From: Melioribacter sp.
GTDB taxonomy: Bacteria > Bacteroidota > Ignavibacteria > Ignavibacteriales > Melioribacteraceae
Reading direction: 5' to 3'
Assembly (NCBI GenBank): GCA_023250955.1
Contig: JAHEZQ010000010.1
Coordinates: forward strand, 1-64,000
Length of the DNA: 64,000 nt
How positions within the stretch are numbered: position 1 is the stretch's first letter; each line of letters starts with the position of its first letter. Of this stretch, positions 5,334 to 49,681 are shown in pieces. Under the pieces are notes generated by a model. It did no database searches, had not been told where the DNA came from, and worked only from the letters and a program-made list of their open reading frames with translations. Made by a program: the position numbers and the translations under genes.

Positions 5334-7454
5334 CTAATCATTAATTCTAAATTTTTCATCGCCAATATCTTTCCCGAAATATTTTTTGTATAACTCAAGA
5401 TATTTTTTATGAAGTTCCGGCGGAATATTTTTTCCATTTACTTTCATTTCATCTTTTGAAAGATTAAAATCATCAAGATCATCTCCCGGTTTTAGCAAAT
5501 TATCTTTTACCAATTCATCTTTAGTCTCATTAACAAATTCTTTCAGAACCTTTATCTTCTCTTTAAGTTTTCCCATGTTTGCATTAAGCTCTTCCATGTT
5601 CTTCTTAAAAGCTTCGCTGTTCGGACCGCTCTTTTTCATTTCTTCGTTAAATTTTTCCGTATCAAATTTTAAGTTTTTCATATTTTCTTTCAGCTCTTTC
5701 ATGGATTCCTTAAATGCTTCGTTATCAAATTTAAAATCCTTCATCTTTTCTTTCAATTCCTTCATAGACTCTTTAAATGTTTCATTGTCAAATTTTAAGC
5801 TGTCCATTCCTTCAAAATGCATTGGCGGAATTGTTATAGACGGAATATCAATCTTTGGAATATGAATAGGAGGAATCTTAAATGAATGCATTGCAAAATT
5901 CTCGCGAAGATTTTTTTGTAACTCTTTCATAAGGGTTTTATTTATTGTTGAATCAAGATCAATTGGTGGAATAGGCGGAATGTCAAAATCGAAATCAAAG
6001 TTGTGATTATAACTGTAATTACCCTTAAATTTTTTCATCTTCTCCTTAAACTGTTTCATTTCCGCTTTGTATTTATTCATGCTGCCGTGGAATTCTTCCA
6101 TTGCCGAATCATATTCATTAAGCCGCTCTGTTATTTTATTTTCATATTTATTCAGATCATTTTCGGGTACCTTCTCTCCATCAATATATAATTCCTCTAG
6201 CTTTCCATTATTTAACTTTGCTTTAATTTTTTTCCCTTCACCATTAACATCGTCATAAAATTTTAGAGTACGTTTTCCTTTCTTGAGCGATGTCGTGTCG
6301 GGAATAGAGCCGAGATCACTAACCGGACTCTTGAAAGAGGAATTATCACTTAATGATGTAACTGGATTAATAAAAGAAACTGTCGTTAATCCGCGTGGAT
6401 TCTCTTTTGCCGAGGCGGAAGAATAAATTGATACTGCCGTCATTACTAAAAGTAAAACGGCGAATGCGGCGAACTTAACGCCATACGAAGTGTTCTTATT
6501 TTTTGTTGTCATTCTATTTATTCTCCTAAATAATTGATTTTTCTTCCCGATCGCTGCAAGAGCCAGTTCATTTTCTTCAGAGCAAATTTGTTGCAAGTTG
6601 TACAGAGCTTTGAAATAAACCAAAGAGCCGCCGCATAATTTTAACGTTAGATCATCGCAGCAATTTTCTCTTTCGCCGTCGATTGTTGATGCAACCCACC
6701 ATACAACAGGATGGTAAAAGAAAATTGTCTCGATCAATGTTTGAATTAGATTAAGTATAAAGTCGTAACGTTTTATATGAGCGAGTTCATGAATAATTAT
6801 TGCTTCAACTTGATCTTGCGGTAAACCGGTTAACATTCCCAGCGGAAGCAAAATCACCGGCTTTAAATATCCCATTGCAACAGGCACTTTTACTTTTGTT
6901 GATTCATATATTTCAACTAACTGTTTAATGCCAATGCTACTTGAAAGCTCTTTTAATCTGAAAACCCAAAAATCATCTAATGATTTTAGTCCTACAGTTC
7001 TCAACCGTTGCACATAAAGTACACCTCCGATAAAACGCATCGAGAAAAGAATAAATCCCAACAGCCAGAGAGTAACAATTACAGAAACATTCTGTGAAAA
7101 ATAATATTCAATTACTTTTACAAAACTTATGGTTGTGTTGGATACTTCCGCGCCCGAAACATTTGTTAATAATTGTGATGAAACTGTATTACTAGGACTA
7201 ACACTTAAATCCGGATATGCAGAATTTGCTGATGGATCATAAACTTGAATAAAAGTTGCCAAGGAAAAGAGGAAGATTAAAACTAAAGCAGCGAAGGATA
7301 AATTATAACGAAGCTGTGCACTTTTTTTGCCGGTTATTAATAAAACACCGCTAAGTAAAATGGCAATCATAGCTCCTTGCCATAATGAGTGAAAGATTGT
7401 CCAGCCGATTGCCTTTATTAATTCTTCGGGTATGAAGTTATAAATAAAGTTCAT
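5334..7454 (-). CDS. M56 family (BlaR1/MecR1-like) membrane metalloprotease with coiled-coil C-terminus
   Basis: In BlaR1-type systems this integral membrane zinc protease senses an outside signal and then causes loss of its partner BlaI repressor. The 706-residue protein has about five hydrophobic segments (near residues 14-40, 51-71, 122-144, 236-258 and 326-346) and the gluzincin motif HELAH at 222-226 with a following ENCCDD (263-268) that suits the third zinc ligand region. After about residue 350 there is no penicillin-binding domain. Instead there is a low-complexity tail with a Pro/Ile segment and repeated charged heptads (for example FKESMKELKEKMKDFKFD), ending in KNIPPELHKKY. The start overlaps the blaI-like stop by four bases, so the two are one operon. 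Confidence 0.85.
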   Translation of the reverse strand: MNFIYNFIPEELIKAIGWTIFHSLWQGAMIAILLSGVLLITGKKSAQLRYNLSFAALVLIFLFSLATFIQVYDPSANSAYPDLSVSPSNTVSSQLLTNVSGAEVSNTTISFVKVIEYYFSQNVSVIVTLWLLGFILFSMRFIGGVLYVQRLRTVGLKSLDDFWVFRLKELSSSIGIKQLVEIYESTKVKVPVAMGYLKPVILLPLGMLTGLPQDQVEAIIIHELAHIKRYDFILNLIQTLIETIFFYHPVVWWVASTIDGERENCCDDLTLKLCGGSLVYFKALYNLQQICSEENELALAAIGKKNQLFRRINRMTTKNKNTSYGVKFAAFAVLLLVMTAVSIYSSASAKENPRGLTTVSFINPVTSLSDNSSFKSPVSDLGSIPDTTSLKKGKRTLKFYDDVNGEGKKIKAKLNNGKLEELYIDGEKVPENDLNKYENKITERLNEYDSAMEEFHGSMNKYKAEMKQFKEKMKKFKGNYSYNHNFDFDFDIPPIPPIDLDSTINKTLMKELQKNLRENFAMHSFKIPPIHIPKIDIPSITIPPMHFEGMDSLKFDNETFKESMKELKEKMKDFKFDNEAFKESMKELKENMKNLKFDTEKFNEEMKKSGPNSEAFKKNMEELNANMGKLKEKIKVLKEFVNETKDELVKDNLLKPGDDLDDFNLSKDEMKVNGKNIPPELHKKYLELYKKYFGKDIGDEKFRIND

Positions 7455-18055: not shown

Positions 18056-19351
18056 ATGACAACACCAATCACAGTTTCGAATTATTTAGATAAATACGGA
18101 TTAAATAACTGGTCGCTTGAATTATTATCCGATAAAAAATTTAGCAACATTGTTGTTATACCCGCAATTCAAGAAAGTGAAAAGATAAAGCCGTTACTAG
18201 CGTCATTATTAGAGAATGATAAAAAATATTTGAACAGAAGTCTGTTTGTATTTGTTATTAATAATCTGAAAAGTTCTAATAACGAAATAAAAACAGACAA
18301 CAGGAAAAGTTTAGAATATCTAAGAGATATTATTTTTGAGAAGAGTGACTATGGAATAAATATTGGTTTAGTGGATGCATCAAGCAGTGGATTAGAGCTG
18401 CCGGAAAAAGACGGCGGTGTTGGTCTGGCAAGAAAAATAGGAATGGACCTTGCACTCACACAATTTGATTATTCTAATTCCGATATAAATATTTTGATCT
18501 GCCTTGATGCAGACTGCACAGTTTCAAATAATTATCTCGCTTCTATTATCCAATCATTCAATCAGTCAAACATCCACGCCGCTTATGTGGAGTATGAACA
18601 TATTTTGCTGAAGAACAAACAAAACCAGCTTGCTATAATCTGCTACGAAATTTTTCTCCGTTATTATGTGCTTGGGTTACATTATGCAGACTCGCCATTT
18701 GCTTTCCCAACAATCGGCTCAACCATGATTTGCGATTATGAAAGTTATATTAAGATTGGCGGAATGAACAAAAAGAAAGCAGCAGAAGATTTTTATTTTA
18801 TGGAAAAGCTGGCAAAGATTACCGAAATAAAAAAGATTAGTGACGCAAGAGTTTATCCTTCAAGCCGCGGTTCATGGCGCGTACCTTTTGGAACAGGGCA
18901 AAGGGTAAATAGGTTTTCTGCCGGTACTCATAACGAATATCTATTGTATGATCCAAAGTCGTTCTATATTTTAAAATCATGGTTGAAAATTTATAACTCA
19001 AAAGAAATTCTTGATGCCGGACTCTACCTAAAATCTGCTGAGGCAATCCATAAATCTCTTTATGATTATCTTGTTCAAAATTCTTTTGAAGATAGCTGGA
19101 ATAAGATTCTAAAAAATTCTAAATCCGATGAGCAAAATCAAAAACAAAAACAAATTTGGTTCGATGGATTCCGTACATTGAAATTAATTCACTATTTAAG
19201 AGATTACGGATTTCCGCCGGTAAATATGTTTGAAGCGCTGGATCAATATTTTGAACTTACGAATTACAATTTACAATTTAAGAGAAAAGAGATAATTCCT
19301 TCGATCGAAGAACAAGTTGATTACCTGAATCTGTTAAGGAGACTCTCTTAA
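18056..19351 (+). CDS. Family 2-like glycosyltransferase
   Basis: A 431-residue soluble protein with a GT-A type fold. The N-terminal half has a nucleotide-sugar binding pattern (VVIPAIQESEKIKPLLASLL, GVGLARKIGMDLA) and a metal-binding DxD-like motif in CLDADCTV (residues ~142-149), followed by acceptor-side features (GSTMICDYESYIKIGGM, KKAAEDFYFMEKL) usual for GT2 enzymes. No transmembrane segment is seen. The substrate is unknown; proximity to miaA and prfA gives no hint. Confidence 0.75.
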   Translation: MTTPITVSNYLDKYGLNNWSLELLSDKKFSNIVVIPAIQESEKIKPLLASLLENDKKYLNRSLFVFVINNLKSSNNEIKTDNRKSLEYLRDIIFEKSDYGINIGLVDASSSGLELPEKDGGVGLARKIGMDLALTQFDYSNSDINILICLDADCTVSNNYLASIIQSFNQSNIHAAYVEYEHILLKNKQNQLAIICYEIFLRYYVLGLHYADSPFAFPTIGSTMICDYESYIKIGGMNKKKAAEDFYFMEKLAKITEIKKISDARVYPSSRGSWRVPFGTGQRVNRFSAGTHNEYLLYDPKSFYILKSWLKIYNSKEILDAGLYLKSAEAIHKSLYDYLVQNSFEDSWNKILKNSKSDEQNQKQKQIWFDGFRTLKLIHYLRDYGFPPVNMFEALDQYFELTNYNLQFKRKEIIPSIEEQVDYLNLLRRLS

Positions 19352-25250: not shown

Positions 25251-26461
25251 TTTATCTTATCAAGTGTTTCGATAATGGTATTCGAAATATATTTTAGGTC
25301 ATCATCTGCTAGATTAGGGTACATCGGTATAGACAATTCTCGCTCGTAGAATTTTTCTGCGACGGGGAAATCATGAACATTGAATCCATAATTCTTTCGG
25401 TAAAATGGTTGAAGATGTACAGGAACATAATGAACCTGGCAATTGATGTTTTTCTCTCTCAATTTTAGAAAATAATTCTTCTTGGAAATCTTTATCTCAT
25501 TAAAATTTATCTGAAGAGGATAAAGGTGATATGCATGTTTTGCAAATCCGGAAACTTTTGGAACAATAAAACGATTATCATTTCCAAAAATCTTATCATA
25601 GTATTCGGCAATTTGTTTCCGTCTCTCGATATTTTTTTCTAATTTTTTTAGTTGACTTATTCCAAGCGCACATTGAAAATCGGTGATGCGGTAATTAAAT
25701 CCAGGCTCATGCATTTCATAATACCATGGTCCGTCATTCTTTTCTAGATCAGACTCATTTTTTGTCATTCCGTGAGTCCGCATAATTTTTATTTTTTTAT
25801 CTAGCGCTTCGTTGTTTGTTAAAACAGCTCCGCCTTCACCGGTTGTTATATGTTTTACAGGATGAAAACTAAGATTTACTGCGTCAGCATATTTTGGAGC
25901 GTATTGAATTTCATTTTTGTATTCAGCACCCAGTGAGTGGCAATAATCGTTAACAAGTTGAAATCCATATTTTTCTTGTAAAATTTTTAAGGCCCCCCAA
26001 TCGCATGGATGACCGGCATAATCAACAGCTACAACAGCTTTCACTTTTCTGTTTTGTGTTGAGTATTGTTTTAATTTCCATTCAAGTTCATTCGGATCAA
26101 GTGTGTATGAGGATTCATCTATGTCAACAAAATCAGGTGTGGCGCCAACATAAACTGCGCAATTTGCACTTGCTAAAAATGTAATGGGTGATGTGATTAC
26201 AACATCATCTTTTTTCCATCCCAATCCTAGTGCGATTAAATGAAGTCCGGCAGTTCCGTTTGAAACTACAGAAGCAAATTTTCCACCGAATTTATTATTC
26301 AGCTCTTGTTCGAACTTCTGAATTGTCGGTCCTTGAGTAAGCCAATCGGATTTGAGAGTTTCTACAACTGCTTGAATATCGGAATCATCAATTGATTGCC
26401 GTCCGTAAGAAAAGCTTTTTGTTATCGGCTGTTGGTTATCGGTTGTTGGTTTTTTTCTCAA
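25247..26461 (-). CDS. pseC: PseC aminotransferase (UDP-4-amino-4,6-dideoxy-N-acetyl-L-altrosamine)
   Basis: A PLP-dependent DegT/DnrJ/EryC1 family transaminase of 404 residues acting on the PseB product. The family N-terminus YGRQSIDDSDIQAVVETL is preceded by about 18 extra residues that come from a heptamer repeat (26421-26448). Other marks are SDWLTQGPTIQKFE, SNGTAGLHL, DYAGHPCDW and the PLP-lysine region SFHPVKHITTGEGG. The start is TTG at 26461, the only start codon before the conserved core; the expected ATG seems to have been lost to the repeat. Confidence 0.9.
   Translation of the reverse strand: MRKKPTTDNQQPITKSFSYGRQSIDDSDIQAVVETLKSDWLTQGPTIQKFEQELNNKFGGKFASVVSNGTAGLHLIALGLGWKKDDVVITSPITFLASANCAVYVGATPDFVDIDESSYTLDPNELEWKLKQYSTQNRKVKAVVAVDYAGHPCDWGALKILQEKYGFQLVNDYCHSLGAEYKNEIQYAPKYADAVNLSFHPVKHITTGEGGAVLTNNEALDKKIKIMRTHGMTKNESDLEKNDGPWYYEMHEPGFNYRITDFQCALGISQLKKLEKNIERRKQIAEYYDKIFGNDNRFIVPKVSGFAKHAYHLYPLQINFNEIKISKKNYFLKLREKNINCQVHYVPVHLQPFYRKNYGFNVHDFPVAEKFYERELSIPMYPNLADDDLKYISNTIIETLDKIK
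26421..26448. repeat. Heptamer repeat at the start of pseC
   Basis: Four seven-base units in an A-B-A-B pattern (GTTATCG, GCTGTTG, GTTATCG, GTTGTTG on the plus strand). They encode the TTDNQQPIT stretch ahead of the conserved pseC core. The unit length and look match STRR elements of cyanobacteria. Confidence 0.75.
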
Positions 26462-27626: not shown

Positions 27627-29024
27627 TTATAAAGAAAGAGAGTCATTAGAAAGAGATCGGTTGTTAAATCTTTCATCTATATTATTTTCTTTATAAAACC
27701 GACCAAGAAATGGGATGTATTTCTCGTAAAGCTTATGAAGTTTTTCCATTTTATAATTTTCGAAGACCCAAAGATGCTTTTTGAACTTCCACAATTTTGA
27801 ATAAACAGCTCGGTTATAAAATGGCCCCGCTATTCTTATTAAAACATAAACTAACCAATGCCAGAAGTGAAAATTATATCGTGATTGGTGATTGGTGATT
27901 AGTGATTGGTTGATAGTATTTTGAAAATAGTTCGCTGCACGAATGTGATTCATTCCGTCACCGAAACCAATAATATCTTCAATTAATTTCTTACGTGTTA
28001 AATCTTTTTCAGTACTATAAGAACCTTCTATTTTTCCGGTTGAATAAAACTCATCAATTAACTTTTGAAATGAATTATAATCCTGAACAATTGTAGAACC
28101 TTTATAAAGCGGATCGCGGTTGAACTCTACTTCCGGATTAATAAAAATTGTCTGCTTATCCATCAACCAACTTTCAAGCGCTGTTGTAGATTCGAAGCAT
28201 GTCCAAATGTCTGAAACACTAATTAGATCATGAATAGATTCTTCTTCACATAAGTAAACCACATTATTGTAATGAGCCAGTTCACTCATTTCATTTTTTA
28301 CTGGCTCGGTTCTTTCGGGCGCGTTTTCTTGTGGGTGCTGTTTTAAAATAAATAATGTTGAAGGGTTTTTGATAATCGCTTGTTCTAAAATGTCTCTTAC
28401 TTTTTTCCGCTGATCTTCTATCCAGATTAATTTACTCTCATCACCTTTTGCCCACATAAGCAATTCATCTCGTCCGCGTTTGTGATCCAACTTGCCAAAC
28501 GCCCATCCTGCATAACCAATTACTTTTTTAAATTGAGTGCCGCTATACTTGCGGAGGAATTCTTCTTTCTTCATGAATTCATAAATAGTATAGCGGTCGA
28601 ATCCGACTCCGCCGGTTACTACAATTTTATCTTTTACCTCCGGAACCTCTTTTCTCAAGAATTCCGCTGTACGTTCACTCCAACAGCAAACAAAATCTTG
28701 ATAAAATTTTTTATCTCGGTTAAATCCCCAGTAATCAAAACTGCCATCAGTTCTAAAATTTCCTTCAGAGATAAGCGCAAACAACGGAATGTTTTGTTTA
28801 TGTGCAATCTTTGAAATTTGGAAATAGAGATTACTTCCGATAGTGTTTGCTTGTAAAATTATATCCGGTTTAATGCGGTAGATTTGATGAATATCTATAT
28901 TAAGTGCATGATGAAATTCGCAGTTCAAAAATCTTTCTGCAAAGTATCTGATAGGCAACATCATTTCAACGTCGCGCCCGACAGCAAAATCCGTAAAGCA
29001 AAGTACTTTTATTTTTTTATTCAT
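27627..29024 (-). CDS. Surface carbohydrate biosynthesis protein (GT-B type, CDP-glycerol transferase-like)
   Basis: A 465-residue cytoplasmic protein resembling surface carbohydrate biosynthesis proteins related to CDP-glycerol glycerophosphotransferases. Relevant segments are VVTGGVGFDRYTIYEF, FILKQHPQENAPE and SDIWTCFESTTALESWLM, which fit the nucleotide-binding C-terminal half of a GT-B enzyme. Residues ~372-382 (ITNHQSRYN) come from a heptamer repeat inserted in frame between the GT core and a C-terminal hydrophobic and basic tail. It probably transfers a sugar or phospho-group in the glycan pathway; the substrate is unknown. Confidence 0.7.
   Translation of the reverse strand: MNKKIKVLCFTDFAVGRDVEMMLPIRYFAERFLNCEFHHALNIDIHQIYRIKPDIILQANTIGSNLYFQISKIAHKQNIPLFALISEGNFRTDGSFDYWGFNRDKKFYQDFVCCWSERTAEFLRKEVPEVKDKIVVTGGVGFDRYTIYEFMKKEEFLRKYSGTQFKKVIGYAGWAFGKLDHKRGRDELLMWAKGDESKLIWIEDQRKKVRDILEQAIIKNPSTLFILKQHPQENAPERTEPVKNEMSELAHYNNVVYLCEEESIHDLISVSDIWTCFESTTALESWLMDKQTIFINPEVEFNRDPLYKGSTIVQDYNSFQKLIDEFYSTGKIEGSYSTEKDLTRKKLIEDIIGFGDGMNHIRAANYFQNTINQSLITNHQSRYNFHFWHWLVYVLIRIAGPFYNRAVYSKLWKFKKHLWVFENYKMEKLHKLYEKYIPFLGRFYKENNIDERFNNRSLSNDSLSL
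27881..27908. repeat. Heptamer tandem repeat inside a glycan gene
   Basis: Four consecutive seven-base units (GTGATTG, GTGATTG, GTGATTA, GTGATTG), followed by a degenerate fifth (GTTGATA to 27915). They are read in frame as part of the surface carbohydrate protein. A near-identical repeat lies at 35262. Confidence 0.85.
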
Positions 29025-34556: not shown

Positions 34557-35846
34557 TTATTTTAAAATTGTTCGAGCATAATTTTCCCAACTCATATTTA
34601 CTGCTTGTTCTGCAACATGTTCACGGGGAATCGGTTTTTCTAAATACAATTTCATCACTTCATACATAGATTCAATATTTTCCGGTTCAGCAAGATAGCC
34701 GTTGTAACCATGTCTTATAGTTTCGGGAAAGTGACCAACTCTTGTTGCAACACTTGGCAATTTAAAATTATATGCGATTGATTCTACTCCAGAAGGTGTG
34801 GCAACAAGATAAAATAAAACATTACAGTCCGCCACTTGAAAATATTTGTGCACCTCTTCATTCCCAACATAACGGTTTATAACCACAGCCTGATTATGAA
34901 TGCCAAGCTCGTCAATTAAATTAAGGGGACGATAGTTACTTTCATCATCACTTTTTCGGAGAAGTAATTTCTTTATTACTCTGAAAAGACTCTTTTTAAT
35001 TTTTGTTGATAATTTATTTGTATCAAGCGTATTCCAAAAAGATTCGCCCACAATCAAAAGAGAAACATCATCACGTTCTTTAGCTAATTTGGCAAATGAA
35101 CGAATCACATTATGCAAACCTTTGTATTTGCGTATAAATCCGAAGAATAAAAAAACATGCTTGCGCAAGCCGAGTTCTTCTTTAACTTTTTCCTTGTCGA
35201 AAGAAGAATCCGGTGTAAACATGTCATAAACAGGATGGTAAAGCTTGATGATTTGTTGCTGGTGATTAGTGATTAGTGATTGGAGATCTTCACTATTCGT
35301 TCTGCGATCGTCGTTAGTTAGAACAAAATGTTTTGTTGGGAATATTTTTTGCAACTCGTCTAATGTTTTTAGAGAGTGCACTATAAACGTGTGTGGTTTA
35401 GAAAGTGCATACCGAATCATTCCATTATCAATTGTGCTGCCTTCCTTTTGTGCAACTACATGAAGATCAAAAATGATTTCGCATTTGCAAACTTGCTTTA
35501 GTTTATTTACAATCCATCCCATCGGCAATCCTTGAATTGCAATCGCCCACTGAAATATTGTTATATCGGGATTTATAATACCTATTACATTAACAGTTTC
35601 TTCCCAGGAGAAGGGATTATTATAGTTAGTAATGTATTCAACTTTTATTTTGGTCTCTTCAAGGAGATTTTTTTTGCTTGAACGGTCAATGAAGTCACGC
35701 GGAATAATTGAAGGATATTGTTGTGTCCATGAAACAATGTAAACTTCGGCACCTTGTTTCTCTAATGCTTTTGCAAGAGAAGAAGTATAATTTGCAATTC
35801 CGCCTTTAAATTGCGGACCAGGACCAAAGACAACAACTTTTTTCAT
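34557..35846 (-). CDS. Glycosyltransferase, GT4 family
   Basis: A 429-residue GT-B enzyme. GPGPQFKGGIANYTSSLAKALEKQGAEV is the N-terminal acceptor region (first 30 residues). FLFFGFIRKYKGLHNVIRSFAKL and LLIVGES mark the C-terminal nucleotide-sugar domain, with YFQVADCNVLFYLVATPSGVESIAYNFKLPSVATRVG carrying the E-x7-E-like site. Residues ~188-195 (SLITNHQQ) come from a heptamer repeat. It lies inside the minus-strand glycan operon. Confidence 0.83.
   Translation of the reverse strand: MKKVVVFGPGPQFKGGIANYTSSLAKALEKQGAEVYIVSWTQQYPSIIPRDFIDRSSKKNLLEETKIKVEYITNYNNPFSWEETVNVIGIINPDITIFQWAIAIQGLPMGWIVNKLKQVCKCEIIFDLHVVAQKEGSTIDNGMIRYALSKPHTFIVHSLKTLDELQKIFPTKHFVLTNDDRRTNSEDLQSLITNHQQQIIKLYHPVYDMFTPDSSFDKEKVKEELGLRKHVFLFFGFIRKYKGLHNVIRSFAKLAKERDDVSLLIVGESFWNTLDTNKLSTKIKKSLFRVIKKLLLRKSDDESNYRPLNLIDELGIHNQAVVINRYVGNEEVHKYFQVADCNVLFYLVATPSGVESIAYNFKLPSVATRVGHFPETIRHGYNGYLAEPENIESMYEVMKLYLEKPIPREHVAEQAVNMSWENYARTILK
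35262..35282. repeat. Heptamer tandem repeat inside a GT4 gene
   Basis: Three consecutive seven-base units (GTGATTA, GTGATTA, GTGATTG). The reading frame and encoded residues (ITNHQ) match those of the repeat at 27881, 7.4 kb away. Confidence 0.8.
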
Positions 35847-47114: not shown

Positions 47115-48185
47115 ATGAAACCGAAGATTAACTTTTTATTATTTGTTATAATTCTACACTCTTTGTTTTACTCTTTGCATTCCCAATCCATTCGTCCGAT
47201 CCGAGATAATATTGGTTTTTGTTGGAACGCTGAAGAGATGAACCAGTTTATGAATTATTTATCAAATGAAGACCACACCAAGCCAGCTAATCAATCCCAA
47301 AATCTTTTCGCTGCGATTTCTGTTCACGATGATTATCTCTATGCGGGAAAAGTTTATTATCCACTTTATAAAAATATAAAAACAAAAGAAGTTGTAATCT
47401 TTGGTGTAACACACGGAACAGTGCGCAAAGAAATGGGCTCTCTATCTAATGTTATTATTCTAGATGAATTTGATAAATGGCGAGGACCATACAAGGACAT
47501 TGAAATTTCCTCATTAAGAGAAATTATTAAATCAGAACTTCCGAAAGAAGATTTTATTGTAAGCAACAAAGCACACGAGATAGAGCATTCAATTGAGGCG
47601 ATAGTTCCTTTCCTTCAATATTATAATCGGGATATTAAAATTACGCCTATCATGATAACACAAATGTCTTATGAAAAAATGGAAGATATAACCGATCGTC
47701 TTTCAAGAATTATTCTAAATTATATTAAAGGGAAAAATCTTGTACCAGGTAAGGATATTTTCTTTTTAACTTCAAATGATGCAAATCATTATGGAGAAGA
47801 CTTTAATAACTCGCCTTACGGATTGGATGCATCAGCACACAAAACCGCGACGGAAAATGATATGAAAATAGTTTTGAAAGATTTAGTCTTAGAAGTAACA
47901 GAAGATAAAATAAAAAATACCGCCAACGATCTTTGGCCAGATCCCAAGAATAAAAAAATAGTTCCTTTGTGGTGCGGAAGATATCCAATTGTATTTGGTT
48001 TGCAGACAATTCTTAAAGTCGCAAATGGCCTAGATAATAAAAAAATATACGGAACATTGTTTAAATACTCGGATACGTTCACAGAAAAAGTGCTGCCGGT
48101 AAAAAATACAAGCATGGGTTTAACAGCAGTTTTTTCATATAAGCATTGGTGTGCATGGTTTACAGAAGGATTTTATTTGGAATGA
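47115..48185 (+). CDS. AmmeMemoRadiSam system protein B / Memo family, secreted
   Basis: A 356-residue protein whose core resembles the Memo family: ISVHDDYLYAGKVYYPL (in place of the usual PHAGYxYSG), VVIFGVTHG, HEIEHSIEAIVPFLQYY and ITPIMI. Family members are related to class III dioxygenases and often sit with an AMMECR1 domain protein and a radical SAM enzyme. Here the last two are absent. An N-terminal signal peptide (to about residue 24) places it outside the cytoplasm, which is unusual. Its stop overlaps an ATG that probably once began the next gene. Confidence 0.8.
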   Translation: MKPKINFLLFVIILHSLFYSLHSQSIRPIRDNIGFCWNAEEMNQFMNYLSNEDHTKPANQSQNLFAAISVHDDYLYAGKVYYPLYKNIKTKEVVIFGVTHGTVRKEMGSLSNVIILDEFDKWRGPYKDIEISSLREIIKSELPKEDFIVSNKAHEIEHSIEAIVPFLQYYNRDIKITPIMITQMSYEKMEDITDRLSRIILNYIKGKNLVPGKDIFFLTSNDANHYGEDFNNSPYGLDASAHKTATENDMKIVLKDLVLEVTEDKIKNTANDLWPDPKNKKIVPLWCGRYPIVFGLQTILKVANGLDNKKIYGTLFKYSDTFTEKVLPVKNTSMGLTAVFSYKHWCAWFTEGFYLE

Positions 48186-48193
48186 AACGAAAA

Positions 48194-48214
48194 AGTGAAA
48201 GGTGAAAGGTGAAA
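48194..48214. repeat. Heptamer tandem repeat across a translation start
   Basis: Three seven-base units (AGTGAAA, GGTGAAA, GGTGAAA). They contain an in-frame TGA that closes the ATG frame at 48182; the current start GTG (48209) lies in the last unit. Removing these 21 bases restores an ATG-led frame overlapping the upstream stop. Confidence 0.8.
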
Positions 48215-49681
48215 AGAAAAATCATTTATTCTGTCAGCATGCTAATAATTGTCTACCTATTGCTTCTTATCCCTTTTGAAAAAAACGAGTCTCCAAAAGT
48301 TGCAGCTAATAAACAATTCGTATGGAACAGAGACTCTCTTTGGCTTTCTCTCGAATCTTTCTATGTTAATGCGAAGAAAAAAGATTGTGCTCAACTCAAT
48401 AATGAAATAAAAAAATCATTTCTGTATTTGAATGCGGTATTGGACTCAATCGAAAGAGTTTCTCTGATGGCAACTGATTCAAAATTTTTAAGGATTGAAA
48501 ACGGAATATTTTATACTGCCGCGTTAGTCGGTGCTTGCCAAGAACATCTTTCCGATTTTATAAACCTTTTTTCCCGAATAAGAAATGCAGTTAAAGAACA
48601 ATCAATCAAATGGAATTTGAATGATATAGCTACGCGGCAAACAATATACAAATTAATTTACGGTGGACGCGCTGCTGTTGAAGAACTTCTTCTTCAAGCA
48701 GATAAAAATAAAATACTCTCTTTGATAATTGGTAAAGAGGAAATCTCTTCCACGCCAACAACAGTTATCAACGGATTGGTAATTCATAGCGGAGATATTT
48801 TAGTATCACGCGGCGGCGCACCTACCTCGGCATTAATAGCGCGAGGAAATGATTATCCCGGAAATTTTTCCCACGTTGCCTTGGTTTATGTTGATGAAAA
48901 AACCGGTAAGACTTATATAATTGAATCTCATATTGAAAAGGGTGTTGCTATTGCTTCAATTGATGATTATTTAAAAGATAAAAAACTTCGTATCATGGTT
49001 TTGCGTTTGAGAGCTGATAATTCCAAGATGCTTCAAGATAAAATGCTTACACATAAAGCCGCAAAGTTTGCATTTGAACGAGTGTCCGCTCAACATATCG
49101 CATACGATTTTGAAATGAATTTTGATGACAGCACAAAATTGTTCTGTTCTGAAGTCGCTTCATCTGCATATAAAAAGTTCGGCATAAATCTGTGGATGGG
49201 TCTATCAACCATTTCATCTAAAGGTATTGCAAAATGGCTTGCCGGATTTGGAGTTAAAAATTTTGTCACTCAAGAACCATCTGATTTAGAATACGATCCC
49301 CAGTTAACAGTAGTAGCCGAGTGGCGCGATCCCAATACTTTATTTAAAGATCATATTGATAATGCAATAATTGAAGCGCTTCTTGAACAAGCCGAAGCAG
49401 GAAAAGAGCTTAGTTATGATTGGTATCTTCTTCCAATTGTCAGAACAGTAAAATTATATAGTACAATCCTAAATCTATTTGATAAAGTCGGACCGGTTCC
49501 GGAAGGAATGAGTCCTGAATCCGCACTCAGACATAAAAAGCTGGTTGCTATGCATGAAGAAATAAAAAATGAAGTTGAGATTAAAATTAAGAGATTCATT
49601 GAACAAATGAATTATAATCCCCCATATTGGAAATTGGTTTCATTTGTCAGAGAAACAATAAAAGAGAAAAAGATTTTCTAG
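48209..49681 (+). CDS. YiiX-like permuted NlpC/P60 family cysteine hydrolase
   Basis: A 490-residue membrane-anchored or exported hydrolase. A hydrophobic segment lies near residues 5-22. Residues ~195-330 match the circularly permuted papain-like YiiX/YebB fold: GDILVSRGG, then H222 in FSHVALVYV, and C313 in LFCSEVASSAYKKFG. Family members are thought to act on peptide or lipid bonds in the envelope; the substrate here is unknown. The start is GTG inside a heptamer repeat. Confidence 0.78.
   Translation: MKRKIIYSVSMLIIVYLLLLIPFEKNESPKVAANKQFVWNRDSLWLSLESFYVNAKKKDCAQLNNEIKKSFLYLNAVLDSIERVSLMATDSKFLRIENGIFYTAALVGACQEHLSDFINLFSRIRNAVKEQSIKWNLNDIATRQTIYKLIYGGRAAVEELLLQADKNKILSLIIGKEEISSTPTTVINGLVIHSGDILVSRGGAPTSALIARGNDYPGNFSHVALVYVDEKTGKTYIIESHIEKGVAIASIDDYLKDKKLRIMVLRLRADNSKMLQDKMLTHKAAKFAFERVSAQHIAYDFEMNFDDSTKLFCSEVASSAYKKFGINLWMGLSTISSKGIAKWLAGFGVKNFVTQEPSDLEYDPQLTVVAEWRDPNTLFKDHIDNAIIEALLEQAEAGKELSYDWYLLPIVRTVKLYSTILNLFDKVGPVPEGMSPESALRHKKLVAMHEEIKNEVEIKIKRFIEQMNYNPPYWKLVSFVRETIKEKKIF

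Follow-up and report, generated by a model that had tools for sequence, protein, structure and literature searches.

A heptamer array lies at the junction between a Memo-like gene and a Peptidase_C92 gene of Melioribacter sp. (genome G000, contig C17), within the 64,000-nucleotide stretch of DNA analysed here (the window). We consider it probable that this is an old array from a dispersed class of period-7 repeats that now serves the C92 gene as its translation initiation region. An earlier note on this DNA had read the same array as a recent change that moved a translation start, and as a possible switch. The array is a real feature but appears to have been misread as a fresh insertion; it is better described as a repeat absorbed into a translation start, and a switch is unlikely.

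A heptamer array supplies the C92 gene with its predicted Shine-Dalgarno site and start codon

The junction has the following features:

47115..48185, + strand: upstream gene, Memo-like protein (PF01875), 356 aa (profile match)
48182..48184, + strand: ATG overlapping the Memo stop codon, within the degenerate first unit (comparison with G008, G007 and G002)
48191..48214, + strand: heptamer array AAAGGTG / GTGAAAG, 3.4 copies (TRF, pattern match, G008/G007 alignment)
48200..48205, + strand: AGGTGA, Shine-Dalgarno-like, across the junction of two units and overlapping the TGA at 48203 (16S complement)
48209..48211, + strand: GTG in the last unit, 6 nt past the GG of the Shine-Dalgarno-like sequence, at which translation of C92 most likely starts (G008, G007, L048)
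48209..49681, + strand: downstream gene, Peptidase_C92 of YaeF/YiiX type (PF05708), 490 aa (profile match)

We confirmed the heptamer array at 48191-48214 using TRF (period 7, 3.4 copies; AAAGGTG / GTGAAAG), in a junction whose sequence from 48181 is AATGAAACGAAAAAGTGAAAGGTGAAAGGTGAAAAGAAAAATC. Matches to the pattern GTGAAARGTGAAARGTGAAA with up to 3 mismatches numbered three, overlapping and every one within the junction array, compared to 0.02 expected in shuffled sequence, indicating that the repeat is real, as the earlier note had claimed, and that chance does not explain it. Alignment with two other species of the genus (G008 and G007) revealed degenerate units upstream of 48191, extending as far as the Memo stop codon. 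As a period-7 tandem of about three copies or more, the junction array has the form of the dispersed heptanucleotide class described below. The downstream protein matches Peptidase_C92 (YaeF/YiiX; PF05708) with an E-value of 1.3e-14 (55 bits, against a cut-off of 27), and its N-terminus consists of KRK and a hydrophobic stretch. The Memo-family gene ends in a TGA (48183-48185) with which the ATG at 48182 overlaps. The frame opened by this ATG runs into a further TGA, made by the repeat, at 48203-48205; on both points the earlier reading holds. The GTG at 48209 opens the 490-aa frame and lies 27 nt from the ATG, hence in the same frame, and the accompanying arithmetic, by which removal of 21 nt joins the ATG to the gene, is correct.

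The AGGTGA sequence (48200-48205) is fully complementary to UCACCU, a 6 nt match to the anti-Shine-Dalgarno sequence, which we took from the 16S 3' end of G001 from the same genus (GGATCACCTCCTTT) because G000 gave the 5' part of its 16S only and G007 gave no 16S. The spacing from the GG of AGGTGA to the GTG is 6 nt, within the range of ~5-9 nt for a Shine-Dalgarno site. Computed pairing is -8.5 kcal/mol for the start at 48209 and -6.0 kcal/mol for the ATG at 48182. Of the window's 39 ATG-led frame starts, 87% pair more weakly than the start at 48209, as do 96% of 400 randomly chosen places. Shine-Dalgarno motifs are enriched before the 39 ATG-led frames (≥200 codons), with GAGG ahead of 8/39 compared to 0.9% of random 14-mers, suggesting that Shine-Dalgarno use by this bacterium is plausible. 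We propose that AGGTGA, formed where two units meet, would pair with the 16S anti-Shine-Dalgarno, that the GTG of the next unit, 6 nt on, would serve as start codon, and that the period of 7 happens to set the two at a workable spacing.

The position of the start codon is shared with relatives

The C92 protein was matched in 6 of the 57 genomes searched (G000 counted). Identity to the G000 protein is 89% in G008, 88% in G007 and 65% in G002; a homologue in a Stygiobacter locus (L048) is 59% identical. Four junctions are readable (G000, G008, G007 and G002); that of G006 is a 100-N gap. G008 and G007 have the same GTG start as G000, with a TGA two codons upstream. The open frame is 491 in all three genomes, and in G008 and G007 it begins one codon ahead of the shared GTG, after the same TGA. 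The array in these two genomes reads GTGAAAG-GTGAAA(C or A)-GTGAAAA-GAAAAAT. Counted by eye from the Memo stop codon onward, the units of G008 number five; G000 has the same five, the first two being degenerate and one base shorter. The spacer from the Memo stop codon to the GTG is 23 nt in G000, 24 nt in G008 and 45 nt in G007, the last including a 20-bp palindrome (CCTACCTGCCGGTAGGCGGG) after the second unit. In G002, the junction has AAATTA-type repeats followed by GATGAAAGGTGAAACGTGAAAAGTGAGTGGCGAGTTATGAAAAGG, and the array GTG may not be the start codon of this species, given an in-frame ATG 21 nt beyond it.

The gene in L048 starts at an ATG, with ATG-AAA-AGA-AAA-ATA aligning residue for residue with GTG-AAA-AGA-AAA-ATC in G000 (the proteins begin MKRKILYILGTLLFFYLILLIP and (V)KRKIIYSVSMLIIVYLLLLIP, respectively). 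The ATG of L048 is at the same residue as the GTG at 48209, indicating that, as judged from these alignments, 48209 is at the ancestral start position. The position of the ATG at 48182 is occupied by GTGA in G008; the corresponding frame is also closed in G007, and the ATG is absent from G002. We regard this ATG as probably not an ancestral start. A recent insertion that broke a gene led by an ATG and left it to start at a makeshift GTG, which is the reading of the earlier note, would fit the in-frame ATG at 48182 and the 21-nt difference that would connect it with the gene. However, this reading is highly improbable, since the array and its GTG are common to two further species, neither G008 nor G002 has an ATG start at the 48182 position, and the start homologue in L048 falls at 48209. 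We rejected a moved start on the homology of the starts in G008, G007 and L048. The array's presence in the junction appears to predate the separation of at least three, and probably four, species of this Ignavibacteriales genus, and translation of C92 most likely starts at the GTG inside the last unit, a proposal of the earlier note that the shared GTG in G008 and G007 bears out.

The predicted Shine-Dalgarno site is retained at four junctions

AAAGG-N6-GTG lies inside the array at all four readable same-genus junctions, and the computed pairing is -8.5 kcal/mol in G008, -8.9 kcal/mol in G007 and -11.1 kcal/mol in G002. Two units ahead of the start, the seventh base, which makes the GG, is G at 4/4 junctions, compared to G, C, A and C for the base just before the start. 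This is the pattern expected if the Shine-Dalgarno alone is retained, in a small sample of four junctions. In L048, the start has a pairing of -1.4 kcal/mol and thus lacks a Shine-Dalgarno, indicating that this element is not essential in the C92 gene family. An SD-less start in a relative is what might be seen if the array were a neutral leftover, a simple repeat with no role whose GTG is used in translation merely because it is present; many arrays of the class, moreover, are in places with no obvious role. We nonetheless consider a neutral leftover unlikely, because four species retain AAAGG-N6-GTG and yet vary in the base that precedes the start. From these sequence patterns, we infer that the Shine-Dalgarno is in use in the cell.

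We also considered a phase-variable or level-tuning switch, in which slippage would alter the number of units and thereby the amount of C92, through Shine-Dalgarno strength and distance from the Memo stop codon. The computed pairing does depend on unit count, being -3.9, -8.5 and -11.3 kcal/mol when one, two and three or more units precede the start unit, and hmw1A of Haemophilus influenzae is reported to be tuned by heptanucleotide repeats (PMC8262952). The hmw1A strains and constructs described there, however, carry 13-24 units, compared to about three at the junction, and the difference in copy number for which the earlier note had proposed comparing relatives was not seen: alignment of the G000, G008 and G007 junctions, with one genome per species, shows no change of a whole unit. 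In addition, the start codon is in the unit adjoining the gene, such that gain or loss of upstream units keeps the GTG at any count and on/off switching is not predicted. A frame-based on/off switch, one half of the suggestion made earlier, is not expected from this anatomy; the other half, an effect of unit number on C92 level, is possible. Overall, a switch appears improbable. Our preferred reading is that the junction element would be an old, short array from a dispersed period-7 repeat class, co-opted for initiating the translation of C92.

Period-7 arrays are dispersed in two genomes of the genus

The result on which we rely for this class is a local-score scan covering 845 kb from two species, with 445 kb of G000 (about one-seventh of that genome) and 400 kb of G007. 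At a score of ≥14, we observed 12 lag-7 arrays, compared to 1 in one shuffled set and 7 for the remaining lags between 4 and 21 combined; at ≥12, there were twenty lag-7 arrays and two in shuffled sequence, and at ≥11, 25 lag-7 arrays (11 in G000, 14 in G007). Period 7 is in excess over other periods in the scanned 845 kb, and the excess is weaker in two cruder scans. When 13/14 matches were required, the two genomes had 3 and 3 arrays at lag 7, 4 and 4 at lag 14, and 2 and 3 at lag 6. With 12/14 matches, lag 7 gave 13 and 15 arrays, compared to 5.3 and 3.7 in shuffled sequence; lag 12 was also raised (11 and 10, compared to 2.0 and 2.3), and G007 showed raised lags 6 and 9 too, as would be expected from codon-period repeats.

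At least thirteen of the 25 arrays lie inside ATG-led frames of ≥90 codons; the true number is higher, as three or more further arrays (117647; G007 1259970 and 1279185) are in genes truncated where a scanned piece ends. Unit families comprise GTGAAAN, GTGATTN, AATTGAG/AATTGCG, CTTACTA, ATTATGA, TACTAAG and AAATTCA. In both species, the hydrophobic part of an N-terminal signal-like sequence is array-encoded (MKINNVKIFFAALLTTYFLLLTSYSFPQ, C17 117609; G007 1349047). Two further heptamer arrays in the window score ≥14, at 27881-27910 and 35262-35287, both with GTGATT units (sites A and B). The arrays in genes of the window are:

19257..19280, + strand: site C, TTACAAT array in a 431-aa gene (18056-19351); units in the orthologous gene of G007 are TTGAGAA, with no indel
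26421..26451, - strand: GTTATCGGCTGTTG array of period 14/7, N-terminal in a 404-aa frame and read as TTDNQQPITK (TRF)
27881..27910, - strand: site A, GTGATTG array in a 465-aa gene (27627-29024), read as NQSLITNHQSRYNF (TRF; L167-L175)
35262..35287, - strand: site B, GTGATTA array in a 429-aa gene (34557-35846), read as QSLITNHQQQ (TRF; L187-L193)

The window also contains a 63-bp tandem repeat at 5660-5799 (2.2 copies, TRF score 182).

Repeat units differ between species at fixed sites

We compared arrays between contig C17 of G000 and contig C7 of G007, which are 80-89% identical in aligned blocks of >1 kb. The aligned blocks contain 17 array rows (8 from G000, 9 from G007), corresponding to 11 distinct sites once reciprocal rows, counted twice, are merged. 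An array is also found in the other species for 14/17 rows and 8/11 sites, at a background level of 1%; the array at G007 1267922 just misses. At 5 of the 11 sites, identity is 52-65% inside the array, compared to 74-89% in the flanks. Four of these five have different units in each species, and the fifth, in the Memo signal region, has a clear array in G007 only. The other six sites, including the junction, are 79-94% identical inside the array; array and flanks are equally conserved there, indicating that sharing at these sites reflects plain descent. With 25 arrays, sharing at 8/11 sites and differing units at four sites, the heptanucleotide class has many loci, shared sites and varying units.

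For 4 of 8 array pairs, the array is closer to an array elsewhere in its own genome than to its orthologue, with own-genome match scores of 14-19.5 in G000 and 11-26 in G007, compared to 6-7.5 for the orthologue; for the other 4/8, the orthologue is the best match. In a control with random heptamer arrays, applied to G000 only, two of four scores were above the 95% level and two were below it. The Memo signal-peptide region (window ~47115-47200) has a CAATTCT array in G007 (C7 1279185-1279222) and G008 (L046 1941-1978), and in G000 period 7 is not clear in this region.

Site A was matched in 10 of 12 genus genomes, with none found in G004 or G008. In each of the ten species aligned, the array is at the same place and no other lag from 3 to 12 does as well as lag 7; all ten genomes read through the array without a stop codon, with units that differ among species (in the whole-gene comparison, G006 aligned over 183 residues only). 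By eye, gene-sense units are of AATCACC/GATAACC type in G000, G010, G005, G011 and G001, and of CAATTCT/CAATTCG type in G007, G009, G006, G003 and G002, the last being mixed. A tree of the flanks pairs G000 with G007 despite their different unit types, and at least three type changes are needed when counted by hand. G000 and G010 are identical across 50 nt spanning the array though separated by the tree. The length between fixed anchors, matched in 5 of 10 species, is 48, 48, 48, 63 and 90 nt, and the difference between 48 and 90 nt corresponds to six units. At site B, lag 7 is best in 6/7 sequences, with a tie in G001. Site B units also differ between species, and G008 (L189) has 30 nt extra.

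Class arrays would arise and be rewritten through slippage-like or conversion-like copying in 7-nt steps, a process that we infer from these comparisons; such copying would make units change together while sites persist. As a broader and rather doubtful proposal, copying in a 7-nt register may rewrite arrays at fixed sites, conserved genes included, such that arrays within a genome share units while orthologues diverge, and the resulting sequences may have been taken up by genes as linkers, as signal peptides and, at the Memo-C92 junction, as an entire ribosome binding site with its start codon. What is unusual is the turnover of units within genes; heptamer repeats themselves are already known.

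Heptamer arrays beyond the two genomes

Among 80 named loci (537 kb), lag 7 had no clear lead that would indicate a general excess outside the genus: at a score of 12, there were 9 lag-7 arrays and 7 each at lags 14 and 21, and at a score of 14, 6 lag-7 arrays compared to 7 at lag 14, in a scan with multiples of 7 unfiltered and no shuffle. Loci L046 and L047 (probably G008 and G002) contributed 4/9 lag-7 arrays; without them, there were 5 at lag 7 and 6 each at lags 14 and 21. Three copies of GTGAAAN were found in 13 of 57 relatives, and three of GTGATTN in 17 of 296 genomes of the phylum, each pattern representing one unit family, so that these counts are not a measure of the whole class. 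The backward control also scores (G019, G012 and G028 in the GTGAAAN search; G222, G212 and others in the GTGATTN search), as pure GTGAAAA or GTGATTA arrays match the control too, and other period-7 arrays may do so.

Four genus genomes carry GTGATT arrays in what is apparently one shared gene (L177, L178, L179 and L184), with translations such as LITNHQSPITFKD. Long heptamer arrays (55-130 nt) are present near C92 genes in metagenome-assembled genomes of Bacteroidia, Chitinophagaceae and Thermoanaerobaculaceae (L065 4440-4541, L094 1032-1161, L087 4510-4564).

The 20-bp palindrome at the G007 junction belongs to a family near CCTGCCTACCGGCAGGCAGG that occurs in 12/12 genus genomes; among the matches listed, G011 has 46 sites and G000 one or two. 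A few of the palindromes lie within heptamer arrays, such as those at G007 C7 ~1280230, in the junction array, and G003 C148 14907-14926, a similar sequence at site A. An association between palindromes and heptamer arrays looked strong at first, with 3/15 palindrome sites having a flank heptamer score of ≥10, compared to 0.03% of random places, one of the three being the known junction. We rejected it, as 0 of 15 G011 sites examined (of 46) had such an array, even at a score of ≥6; one site is in both sets.

Comparison with known heptanucleotide repeats

Loci of the site A type, with period 7 and the same frame in ten species and with differing units, allow ordinary alignments to be used in asking why the period is seven and what rewrites heptanucleotide repeats. 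Among the literature matches listed, there was no paper on heptamers in Ignavibacteria, and no precedent for many unit families in one genus, frequent in-frame placement, unit replacement at orthologous sites, or an array holding both a Shine-Dalgarno and a start codon. Cyanobacterial STRR heptamers are short, tandem and genome-dispersed, as here, with different unit sequences.

Heptanucleotides are reportedly the commonest long simple repeats in most genomes rich in such repeats (PMC4679880, which retells the excess described by Mrazek 2007), and one idea is that 7 nt reflects the stretch interacting with DNA polymerase (PMC4679880; also cited in PMC4692102). The GGGAATC / GGGGA(C/T)T repeats of Xanthomonas and Nostoc resemble those described here in having heterogeneous 7-nt units at many dispersed loci, often near ORFs, and in occupying the same intergenic sites in two related Xanthomonas species, with length and sequence variation at the shared sites (PMC4692102). 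As described in that source, they have a strong non-coding bias and can form quadruplexes. By contrast, the genomes studied here each have many, mostly A+T-rich unit families, and 13/25 arrays are in frames. The tandem repeats of Borgs, archaeal extrachromosomal elements, are likewise reported to evolve fast and to occur within and between genes, with perfect amino-acid repeats in ORFs (PMC9879509); here, we observed few, imperfect 7-nt units in bacterial genomes.

Two known systems lie ahead of genes, as the junction array does. The hmw1A repeat of H. influenzae is a tandem 7-nt repeat before a gene, in a long promoter-region array for which an effect of copy number on expression was measured (PMC8262952), whereas the junction has three units, with a copy number that is constant across the three species compared. 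TAACTGA repeats of Beggiatoaceae, some Cyanobacteria and five Bacteroidetes share the period of 7, and in the BOGUAY genome they are mostly just upstream of start codons, where a post-transcriptional role has been suggested (PMC4679880). Kinship with these repeats was looked for and not found: two tandem copies (TAACTGATAACTGA) are present in 1 of 238 loci, outside the genus, in a search of loci only, and the junction unit is different. Unlike the TAACTGA repeats, the junction array itself contains the predicted Shine-Dalgarno and start codon, and the Memo-C92 junction illustrates how repeat DNA may turn into a working translation start.
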